DNA of 64,000 nt. Source: Gammaproteobacteria bacterium (GTDB lineage: Bacteria > Pseudomonadota > Gammaproteobacteria > UBA6429 > Thiohalophilaceae). Shown piece after piece: positions 25,745 to 49,598 of this stretch. Each line of letters starts with the position of its first letter. The stretch's first letter is position 1. The stretch lies in NCBI GenBank assembly GCA_016194635.1, contig JACQBC010000012.1:1-64000 (forward strand), written 5' to 3'. The notes beneath the pieces were generated by a model. That model worked only from the letters and a program-made list of their open reading frames with translations. It was not told the DNA's origin and ran no database searches. The position numbers were made by a program, and so were the translations under genes.

Positions 25745-27907
25745 ATTGCCACACCAGTAACAGCACTGGGGGCGAGCGACCCTGCCGAGTTTCGCATCAG
25801 CCATCTGTGCGAAGTGCTCGAACAATATCTTGAGCCCGATAAGATCGCTGAGATCTATCGGGCTTATTTATTTGGGGCCGAAGTGCATGACGGTCAGCAC
25901 CGTCTAAGCGGTGAACCGTATATCTACCATCCGGTGGCGGTGGCGCGCATCTTGGCCGATATGCGCATGGATCACCTCAGCATCATCGCCGCCTTATTGC
26001 ACGACGTCATCGAAGATACACCCACCGCAAAAGACCAATTGGTTAAATTATTCGGTACCGAAGTGGCCGAATTGGTCGATGGTGTCAGTAAACTAACCCA
26101 TATCGAATTTGAAAGCCGCCAAGAGGCGCAGGCGGAAAACTTCCGCAAGATGATGTTGGCGATGACGCGTGATATCCGCGTGATCCTGATCAAACTCGCC
26201 GACCGGCTCCACAATATGCGTACCCTCAACGCCATGTCACCCGAAAAACGCCGGCGGATTGCGCGCGAAACCTTGGAAATCTACGCACCGATTGCCAATC
26301 GCCTGGGAATGAATCAAGTCCGTTTGGAACTCGAAGATTTAGGTTTCGCGGCCTTATATCCCTTGCGTTCGCGGGTACTGGCCGATCATATTCGTAAAGT
26401 GCGCGGTAATCGTAAGGAGATCGTCAAAAAGATCGAGTTGTCGATCACCGAACGTTTACACCAGGAAGATCTCACCGGTCAGGTGATTGGACGGGAGAAA
26501 CACCTCTACAGTATTTATAAGAAAATGGGTGATAAACAATTACCGTTTAGTGAAGTCACCGATGTCTATGCGTTTCGTATCATCGTCGATAGCGTCGACA
26601 TGTGTTATCGCGTGCTGGGTGTCGTGCATAATCTTTATAAACCCGTACCGGGAAAATTTAAAGATTATATTGCGATCCCCAAGGCCAACGGTTACCAATC
26701 CTTACACACTGTGCTGTTCAGTCCTTATGGGGTTCCTATTGAGGTACAAATTCGCACCGAAGATATGCACAAGGTCGCCGAAGGCGGGATCGCCGCGCAT
26801 TGGTTGTATAAAAGCGGCAGCGACGCTGGCAGTAGCGCCCAGGCCCGCGCGCGCCAATGGTTGCACAATGTGTTGGAGATTCAGCAACACGCTGGTAATT
26901 CGGTGGAGTTTCTGGAAAATGTCAAAATCGATTTGTTCCCCGACGAGGTGTATGTGTTCACCCCCAAGGGTGAAATCATGGTGTTGCCCAGCGGTGCCAC
27001 CGCGATTGATTTTGCCTACGCGGTACATACCGATGTAGGCAATCGTTGCGTGGCGGTCAAGATCGATCGGCGCTTAACTCCGTTGCGCAGCGAATTATAT
27101 AACGGCCAAACCGTGGAGATTATTACCTCCCCCGGAGCGCGGCCCAATCCGGCCTGGCTCAACTTCGTGCAAACCGTCAAGGCCCGCTCCAATATCCGCA
27201 ATTATTTAAAAAATCTGAAACACGACGATGCGGTACGGCTGGGCCGTCATTTGTTGAATAAAAGTCTGGAAGTGTACGAGACCAACCTTGATAAACTCGA
27301 TGTCAAACGAATTGAACACGTCATACAAGAATTTAAAGTAACGGCTTTAGATACGCTGCTCGAAGAAATTGGTTTGGGTAATCATATTTCGATCGTTATC
27401 GCCCGCGCGCTGATGCAAGGTGAAGAAGAGCGTGTCAGTCACGACGACACGAATTCACATCCGCGTCCACTGGCAATCAAAGGCACCGAAGGCGCGGTGG
27501 TGACCTTCGCCAAGTGTTGCCGTCCGATCCCCGGTGATCCCATCTTGGGTTTTGTCAGCGCCGGGCGGGGTATTGTTATCCATACCCAGGGTTGTAAAAA
27601 TGTCGCTGAATTTCGCACTCGGCCCGAGAAGTGGATCGACGTGGAGTGGGAACGCCACGTCGAGGCCGATTTTCCGGTCGAGCTGCGTCTGTTGGTGCAA
27701 AACCAACGTGGTGTGTTGGCGACTGTGGCGGCGGCGATTGCCGATATGGAATCCAATATCGAGAATGTCAGTATCGATGAACGCGATGGGTCACAATCGG
27801 AAATGCGGTTTACAGTGTCGGTGAAGCATCGCAAACACCTGGCGGGTATCTTGCGGCGGTTACGTCACATCGATAAAGTTATGCGGATTTATCGGGCTAG
27901 CCGATGA
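25745..27907 (+). CDS. spoT: Bifunctional (p)ppGpp synthetase/hydrolase SpoT
   Basis: This RelA/SpoT homologue has an HD hydrolase domain (HPVAVARILADM, LLHDVIEDT, KLADRLHNMRTL) and a synthetase domain (GREKHLYSIYKKM, YAFRIIVDSVD, DYIAIPKANGYQSLHT, EVQIRTEDMH). The TGS domain reads DEVYVFTPKG, the conserved-Cys region FAKCCRPIPGD, and a C-terminal ACT domain closes the protein. The intact HD motif marks it as SpoT-like. The start is uncertain. The GTG at 25814 gives 697 residues but removes the conserved helix ISHLCEVLEQYLEP. An ATT at 25745 with a good ribosome-binding site gives about 720 residues. It follows rpoZ by 12 nt. Confidence 0.93.
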   Translation: MATPVTALGASDPAEFRISHLCEVLEQYLEPDKIAEIYRAYLFGAEVHDGQHRLSGEPYIYHPVAVARILADMRMDHLSIIAALLHDVIEDTPTAKDQLVKLFGTEVAELVDGVSKLTHIEFESRQEAQAENFRKMMLAMTRDIRVILIKLADRLHNMRTLNAMSPEKRRRIARETLEIYAPIANRLGMNQVRLELEDLGFAALYPLRSRVLADHIRKVRGNRKEIVKKIELSITERLHQEDLTGQVIGREKHLYSIYKKMGDKQLPFSEVTDVYAFRIIVDSVDMCYRVLGVVHNLYKPVPGKFKDYIAIPKANGYQSLHTVLFSPYGVPIEVQIRTEDMHKVAEGGIAAHWLYKSGSDAGSSAQARARQWLHNVLEIQQHAGNSVEFLENVKIDLFPDEVYVFTPKGEIMVLPSGATAIDFAYAVHTDVGNRCVAVKIDRRLTPLRSELYNGQTVEIITSPGARPNPAWLNFVQTVKARSNIRNYLKNLKHDDAVRLGRHLLNKSLEVYETNLDKLDVKRIEHVIQEFKVTALDTLLEEIGLGNHISIVIARALMQGEEERVSHDDTNSHPRPLAIKGTEGAVVTFAKCCRPIPGDPILGFVSAGRGIVIHTQGCKNVAEFRTRPEKWIDVEWERHVEADFPVELRLLVQNQRGVLATVAAAIADMESNIENVSIDERDGSQSEMRFTVSVKHRKHLAGILRRLRHIDKVMRIYRASR

Positions 27908-27937: not shown

Positions 27938-28057
27938 ATTACCTTTGGACGGCCCCCGCGGCTGGCGTGACTCGCCGTAAATACGTCCCTGTAGGCTCGG
28001 CGGCCGCATCCTTGCGGCGACGGTCACGCCAGCCGCGGGGGGCCGTCCAAAGGTAAT
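27938..28057. repeat. Palindromic intergenic element, copy B (short core)
   Basis: The left arm 27938-27971 and right arm 28023-28057 are inverted complements except for one extra G. The tips read ATTACCTTT/AAAGGTAAT, and the inner ends GCGTGAC/GTCACGC. The 51-nt core has TCGCCGTAAATACGTCCC, TGTAGGCTCGGCGG and a small hairpin GCCGC-ATCCTT-GCGGC. It lies 30 nt after spoT and could act as a strong transcript-ending or stabilising hairpin. No gene is visible in the 307 nt between this copy and copy C. Confidence 0.88.
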
Positions 28058-28364
28058 CGGTTACGCTGTTTAGATTCTAAAAGAAATGCGCAACTGCATC
28101 CTTATTATTTATTGATTAACATGCGCTGATGAATCAGTGTGGTGGCAATGTACCAAAGTATCATAGGCTGGATATTCGCATGCTGAGTTGTCGGCAGAAG
28201 CACCCTGACGGGTAGAAACTCGGCCTGCCATTCATTGCATGCAACGTGATTAAATAAACAGAATTGGAAACCGGTAACAGTTATTTAGTAACTTACAATC
28301 AACCTGTAGTTGAGGGTTATACAAGGAGTTGGTTTGGGATATATTAAATATTATTGACGTGATC

Positions 28365-28482
28365 GTTACCTTTAGCCGGTCACCGCCAGGGCGTGACCGT
28401 CGGCGACAGGGATGTCGCCGCCGAGCCTACAGGGATGTATTCACGGCGAGTCACGCCCTGGCGGTGACCGGCTAAAGGTAAC
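28365..28482. repeat. Palindromic intergenic element, copy C (short core, inverted)
   Basis: The 33-nt arms (28365-28397 and 28450-28482) are perfect inverted complements. Their tips (GTTACCTTT/AAAGGTAAC) and inner ends (GCGTGAC/GTCACGC) match copy B, but the middle 17 nt or so are unrelated to copy B. The core is the reverse complement of the copy B core with few changes. The internal hairpin is GGCGAC-ATCCCT-GTCGCC, a different but again complementary stem. It ends 55 nt upstream of ridA. Confidence 0.9.
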
Positions 28483-49446: not shown

Positions 49447-49447
49447 T

Positions 49448-49573
49448 GTTGGTGGTCACTAGGTTCGCCCGGTGGGTGTGACTTGCCGTAAATACCTGCT
49501 TCGACAATTGCTCCCTGTGCATCGTTCCCGCCGCCCACGGTCATCTGCACCGAATAACCCAGTCATCACCAAC
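49448..49573. repeat. Palindromic intergenic element, copy D (degenerate)
   Basis: The arms 49448-49482 and 49540-49573 are imperfect inverted complements (GTTGGTG tips). The core contains TTGCCGTAAATACCT, CTCCCTGTGCATCGT and GCCCACGGTCAT, aligning with copy A at 7348. It fills the space between convergent ctaB and the glutaredoxin gene and could end transcription from both sides. Confidence 0.7.
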
Positions 49574-49598
49574 AGCACCACGACACACCAGGGTTAAT

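Follow-up and report, generated by a model that had tools for sequence, protein, structure and literature searches.

How can the two arms of a palindromic element differ from one copy to the next and still remain complementary within each copy? This question is raised by two elements, copies B and C, in the window, the whole 64,000-nt stretch of DNA that was analysed. B (27938-28057, plus strand) and C (28365-28482, minus strand) are located between genes that we take, from our own reading of the ORFs, to be spoT (25814-27907) and a ridA-like gene (28538), with the core of copy C upstream of the ridA-like ORF. In copy B, the left arm (27938-27971, plus strand) begins with the tip ATTACCTTTGG.. 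and has a GCGTGAC end that overlaps the conserved core of 61 nt (27967-28027, plus strand; GTGACTCGCC..GGTCAC), whose GGA strand is the minus strand; the right arm (28023-28057, plus strand) starts with GTCAC and contains one G that has no counterpart in the left arm. A spacer of 307 nt (28058-28364) leads to copy C, in which arm 1 (33 nt, 28365-28397) and arm 2 (33 nt, 28450-28482), both given on the plus strand, flank a conserved core of 62 nt (28393-28454, minus strand), which has its '+' orientation on the minus strand and its GGA strand on the plus strand of the window.

The opposite orientation and 307-nt gap reported in an initial annotation are confirmed by these coordinates, and the GCGTGAC inner ends, near-identical core and ATCCYT loop of B and C are as it described. 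The complementarity of the arms within a copy also stands (33/33 positions in C; 20/20 and 19/19 flanking the one extra base in B), as does the covariation of the inner hairpin, GCCGC/GCGGC in B versus GGCGAC/GTCGCC in C. The tips TTACCTTT are common to B and C but were not seen as a family-wide feature in the arms listed, and where four copies had been implied, the window gave two good ones and a third, decayed or variant copy (49447-49574, plus strand), a covariance-model match with E=0.007. This third interval has an alternative form of the core, in which part of it is swapped for a module with CAATTGCTC, also present at locus L254 and, in the source genome (G000), at C19:47425, C21:28831, C27:167419 and C31:156392. 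Folded as single-stranded DNA, B and C had z scores of -11.4 to -15.7, with 0 of 200 shuffles as stable. Matches in the window at the gathering scores of Rfam 15 were two tRNAs only, none of them on the copies.

A dispersed family of structured repeats

With copy B as query, blastn found 42 places in G000, the source genome of the window, B itself being counted twice. An alignment (A1) and a covariance model (R1) were built from 29 of 30 blastn loci, all from G000. In the 29 copies of A1, paired cells make up 92.6%, a share that falls to 29.5-40.4% once the partners are slid by 1-3 columns, and doubly changed cells number 335, compared with 95.6 in shuffles. The R1 search of G000 returned at least 147 matches, at least 141 of them at E<1e-9; this count is a floor, 150 of 1683 first-look candidates having been scored, and says little on decayed copies. 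Two arm matches about 100 bases apart at C37:94702-94829 of G000 suggest a type II copy (see below) outside the 147. The dispersed structured family with arm-pair covariation that the initial annotation had proposed is thereby borne out genome-wide, and the covariance-model search extended it to relatives: R1 matches were present in 22 of the 58 genomes searched, G000 included, under strict filters. With the same filters and at most 61 candidates scored per genome, there were at least 59 copies in G007, 55 in G012 and 43 in G029. Within one genus, the strict filters gave 4 copies in G001, compared with at least 141 in G000.

A search of named genomes with a core pattern matched at least 115 stretches. 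The 80 matches listed are labelled Gammaproteobacteria or come from taxa that belong to this class, and the genera include Methylomonas, Methylotuvimicrobium, Nitrococcus, Aquisalimonas, Reinekea and Thiohalomonas; Methylotuvimicrobium buryatense 5G carries the core. One core pattern had no match in viral contigs, and one 76-base query had none in plasmids and phages. The best Rfam similarity of copies, at three other loci, was a sub-threshold one to RF02770 (Yersinia Ysr224; at most 32.5 bits versus a gathering score of 70), for example at L197:448-546 and L001:1960-2051, and another sub-threshold match was to MIR8670. In the literature searched, no paper was recognised as describing the repeat family; the available parts of PMC5864184 and PMC9788540 concern CsrA-type sRNAs other than the present repeat.

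Anatomy, ends and insertion

The core of about 62 nt is a three-way junction with two small hairpins, P2 (GCN, a GTRAA bulge, then TACNTCCNTGTA and NGC) and P3 (CGRC..GCNTCCNTGC..GACG), and the stem is about 25-43 bp long and of free sequence. When the 147 G000 matches were extracted and 12 odd cores dropped, the rest comprised 60 type II and 75 type I copies, the type I set still holding a few long or mis-sorted ones. Type II copies have a core AAGAC..GTCTT, near-identical arms and TA at both ends. Type I arms have a median length of 29 nt and are often unrelated between copies; 76 of their 2020 arm pairs are mismatched, a floor since arms were extended until pairing failed. Some type I arms, and the arms in G007, follow a family consensus. 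Near-identical arms are confined to type II, and neither of the outcomes that had been named as contrary to the proposal, arms that fail to complement each other or a single arm sequence in almost every copy, was obtained.

A long form of about 170 nt with extra hairpins occurs in G000 and G007 (L085, L092, L196, L197 and L229). Among 13 close pairs (at most 304 nt apart), sorted by eye, 10 are in + then - orientation. All nine close pairs that have no type II member show this order, as do B and C. The spacers of the close pairs compared, that of B/C included, have no mutual similarity.

Many G007 units have, by eye, terminal inverted repeats (CTAAATRG..GTTCCGAAT) on both sides with the hairpin central, so that these units, together with the type II ends, show the terminal inverted repeats of a MITE; for type I such repeats are not clear. 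As to target-site duplications, type II has TA at both ends, and no consistent one was found in 64 type I copies. Neither Y1 (RAYT; Y1_Tnp) nor DDE_3 (IS630) domains were found in G000. Mobilisation by a RAYT or an IS630 transposase was rejected because these domains were absent from the G000 search and their presence in relatives did not, by eye, track copy number. A larger unit shared by flanks or spacers was likewise rejected, with four weak matches among flanks and none among spacers, and no general unit was found in the type I flanks.

G021 has an orthologous site without a G007 copy, with a junction that is not clean, and no clean empty site was found among the sites compared. The orthologous flank was not found in G012 or G023, and in G001, of the same genus, only pieces of the one locus tried matched. 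At folA (G000 C1:10498; L070:2708-3280), the element arm starts at residue 179, and 20 of 23 matches to folA homologues end by residue 183. Since the reading frame continues beyond the end of those 20 matches, the element was probably inserted at folA. Lying at the 3' end of the gene, it lengthens the predicted protein by about ten residues. That the left arm is the coding tail of a conserved protein was rejected as a general account, as open frames of at least 100 codons reach the arms in only 14 of 135 copies (15 frames) and are therefore not a feature of the family.

CsrA/RsmA-like loops in the core

On the strand opposite to the core of the initial annotation, both hairpin loops read C-[ANGGAN]-G. 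Variation falls mainly on the two N, with the A, the GGA and the closing C-G almost invariant, in type I (73 copies), type II (60), G007 (49, among them three long forms in which P3 is disturbed) and 18 loci from further genomes, the latter out of 20 tried and found by the G000-trained model rather than by a loop pattern. Two loci under the guide score (L051 and L052) also have both loops, by eye. The weakest of the fixed loop bases is the A of P2 (51 of 60 type II copies, six of the exceptions being alignment gaps), and the N of the P3 loop vary little in types I and II; for 73 cores of named genomes only P3 counts, the search pattern having fixed P2. The GGA triplets of the model core are 20 nt apart.

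The available parts of PMC7652899 give for CsrA the SELEX consensus RUACARGGAUGU, with a hexaloop and AC/GU pairing, for RsmE an ANGGAN hexaloop, and for bridging by CsrA a distance between sites of 10-63 nt with an optimum above 18 nt; ANGGAN is also given for RsmN in the part of PMC3791407 available. The repeat has an ANGGAN hexaloop with C-G closure and fixed A and GGA, and its 20-nt distance lies in this range and above the optimum's lower limit. Genes for csrA (PF02599) number one in G000 and one or more in 36 of 40 genomes. From these sequence features, the core is predicted to be a dual-site CsrA-binding RNA module. The GTRAA bulge and a GCTCGAC linker are conserved as well and have no explanation in CsrA binding.

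In minimum free energy (MFE) folds of the GGA strand, hairpin loops held both GGAs for 27/73 type I, 11/60 type II and 21/46 G007 copies, and at least one for 66/73, 46/60 and 43/46, respectively; in shuffled type I cores both were in loops in 0/73 and one in 17/73. The predicted fold of the GGA strand of copy B departs from the two-loop form. When 11 long copies were folded, the GGA of the first added hairpin was unpaired in 11/11 and that of the second added loop in 9/11 (one copy has GAA), and that of P2 in about 3/11. SELEX ligands mostly have four pairs or fewer (PMC7652899, available part), from which it follows that very stable stems may hinder CsrA binding.

The main alternative is that a transposase or host protein recognises the core hairpins at the DNA level, in single-stranded or cruciform form, the pairing of the arms being selected for mobility and the ANGGAN match being coincidental. 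We regard this explanation as doubtful, and several results are in its favour. The TCC strand formed both loops in the MFE folds of 49/73 type I, 14/60 type II and 34/46 G007 copies, equal to or better than the GGA strand. There is no strand bias with respect to genes: for 118 G000 elements with a defined direction, based on simple ORF calls, the strand that would be read is GGA in 55 and TCC in 63. In convergent regions type I leans to TCC (20 versus 9) and type II to GGA (13 versus 5). The absence of orientation bias also led us to discard the idea of a strand-specific RNA in 3' UTRs. Mismatches in type I arms show no wobble bias (30 versus 25), copy numbers are patchy among genomes, type II has TA at both ends, and terminal inverted repeats close many G007 units. 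Against the DNA explanation are the missing Y1_Tnp and DDE_3 domains in G000 and the near fixation, in both hexaloops, of the A and GGA with two free N, which is what CsrA reads.

Wobble pairs, counted over cells that are non-independent, lean to the GGA strand in P2 (51 versus 10, with 40 of the 51 from type II and largely one inherited change), weakly in P3 (42 versus 30) and in pooled arms (121 versus 91, p=.046). Since there is no strand bias and the folds do not favour the GGA strand, the CsrA reading rests on the loop signature. The structured RNA family suggested at the outset is sustained in a different sense, in that the loops match the CsrA/RsmA recognition hairpin, and is weakened by the lack of strand bias relative to genes.

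How the arms change

The G007 family has 49 copies, 46 of which were analysed after three long forms were dropped. Their mean pairwise difference is.36/.35 in the arms,.078 in the core and.65/.60 in the outer regions. In a fixed 26-nt window, the arms of the same copy differ in 70 of 1196 columns, 41 of these being the outermost base, which is asymmetric across the G007 family; when arms were instead extended outwards starting at the core, mismatches numbered 23 among 1152 pairs. The one-arm differences per copy pair stay at.92-1.71 across all five distance bins, and the two-arm differences climb from.43 to 8.67 with distance, the pairs being non-independent. The five closest of 15 disjoint nearest pairs have 6 two-arm and 7 one-arm changes, and two-arm changes are absent from the two closest, which would be the outcome if a mutation began in a single arm and was later either lost or copied to the other.

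In the 15 disjoint nearest G007 pairs, the two-arm changes consist of 23 transitions, 32 transversions and 9 indel positions, and the one-arm changes of 9 transitions, 10 transversions and 2 indel positions. The 41 of 64 two-arm changes that are transversions or indel positions could not have passed through a single wobble intermediate, which argues against stepwise compensation. Relative to the outer tips, the orientation of the core is reversed in 3 of 49 G007 copies (8 of 49 being unclassifiable) and, in type II, in 7 of the 58 copies for which one or both tips were read, or 2 of 29 with both. Examples that resemble spacer inversions are G000 C30:101590 and L217, L199 and L235. Type II copies have mostly one-arm changes, which indicates that arms are not converted rapidly in all cases.

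When template switching takes place between inverted repeats, its two known products are homogenised arms and inverted spacers, and transversions were favoured in bacterial data, according to the available part of PMC8604942; the maintenance of RNA stems by template switching has been proposed (PMC8794818, available part). Judged from the sequences of the copies, the arm changes probably fit template switching between the arms during replication better than stepwise compensation. The copying mechanism rebuilding both arms that the initial annotation had offered is thus favoured by the pattern of arm changes; its further suggestion, copying by an enzyme encoded in trans, is not, given that no Y1 (RAYT) or DDE_3 (IS630) domains were found in G000, and ordinary replication template switching is preferred.

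It is in our judgement unlikely that selection maintains a structured RNA copy by copy, the arms being matched one step at a time by ordinary compensatory mutations in the absence of template switching. The contrast in G007 between a core difference of.078 and outer differences of.60-.65 does indicate that the core is constrained, as this explanation would have it, but the transversions and indel positions among the two-arm changes, the core inversions, the lack of strand bias, arms without a clear wobble preference and the 4 copies in another genome of the genus against at least 141 in G000 all argue against it. A very improbable source of the arms is host DNA flanking the inserted core and copied in inverted form, which would agree with the many mutually unrelated type I arms but not with the family consensus in part of the type I and in the G007 arms, with the failure of type I arms of at least 20 nt to find any outside match better than E=0.01 in 577 kb (bar one unlisted type II copy), or with folA, where the ends of the homologue matches by residue 183 imply that most of the left arm, starting at residue 179, is not old folA sequence, evidence that concerns the left arm and leaves the right flank as a possible arm source.

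Comparison with known systems

CsrB/CsrC and RsmX/Y/Z are one or a few genes with their own promoters. The present repeats resemble them in their GGA-loop hairpins, ANGGAN hexaloop and sites spaced for a CsrA dimer, and differ in having tens to more than 140 dispersed copies with two or about four sites each, placed on a long stem of free sequence. With MITEs they share the character of short, non-coding, dispersed and mostly intergenic inverted repeats, with terminal inverted repeats in many G007 units and TA ends in type II; unlike MITEs, they have one central core between unrelated arms and ends in different genera, and no DDE_3 or Y1 transposase was found in G000. Integron attC sites have R'/R'' core sites and form cassette arrays, whereas the present copies are dispersed.

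REPINs are the subject of PMC3116915. The repeats are like GTAG/CGTC REP repeats and REPINs in being high-copy extragenic palindromes and in their preference for convergent over divergent regions (47 versus 10 elements); the available part of PMC3733652 places REPs mainly in unidirectional and convergent regions and also describes CGTC dimers inside longer palindromes in H. neapolitanus. They differ from REPs and REPINs by their hexaloops, three-way junction and copy-specific arms, and by the lack of a RAYT domain in the G000 search. The combination of a conserved GTAG tag and a RAYT was not found: GTAG stands at the P2 end of many cores, with its last G in 28 of 73 type I copies. By eye, the GGA strand has CGTC just before P3, a hairpin whose stem opens with GGC and whose loop has six bases, whereas CGTC REPs have a stem of 8-9 bp starting with A/T pairs, a loop of 4-5 and a CCA tail (PMC3733652, available part). 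In the portions of PMC8604942 and PMC8794818 available, the likeness to arm homogenisation by template switching lies in identical arms, spacer inversions and transversions that are not disfavoured; those studies treat many separate genes or RNAs, whereas here one dispersed repeat family shows homogenisation in parallel copies.

Interpretation and significance

The explanation that we consider somewhat more probable than the contrary is that the copies are MITE-like palindromes with concerted evolution of their arms and a core that is a predicted dual-site CsrA-binding RNA. As the pattern of changes suggests, template switching while the hairpin is being replicated would transfer a mutation from one arm to the other, or the mutation would be reverted, and the arms would thus drift fast and yet remain complementary, with the core occasionally inverted. 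On the GGA strand, the conserved core has two C-G-closed ANGGAN hexaloops 20 nt apart, the sequence signature of a dual CsrA/RsmA site. Transcripts running through this strand, if made, would bind CsrA and might act as a scattered sponge or as a local tag on mRNAs.

A more tentative extension, possible in our view, is a transposable CsrA sponge, in which the load of mobile repeats, and not a dedicated sRNA gene, would set part of the CsrA titre. Many Gammaproteobacteria would then carry tens to more than a hundred palindromes with two to four CsrA sites each, whose stems template switching would keep perfect.

Traits known from other systems come together in the family, whose MITE-like palindromes carry a predicted CsrA-binding module and whose arms evolve in concert in many parallel copies. 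With well over a hundred copies, it is a natural data set on covarying stems whose origin seems to owe little to stepwise selection. This is a caution against taking covariation as proof of RNA function, and the copies may be used to probe the template-switch model in bacteria. If the CsrA reading is true, the genome-wide repeats of many Gammaproteobacteria would be linked to a global post-transcriptional regulator.
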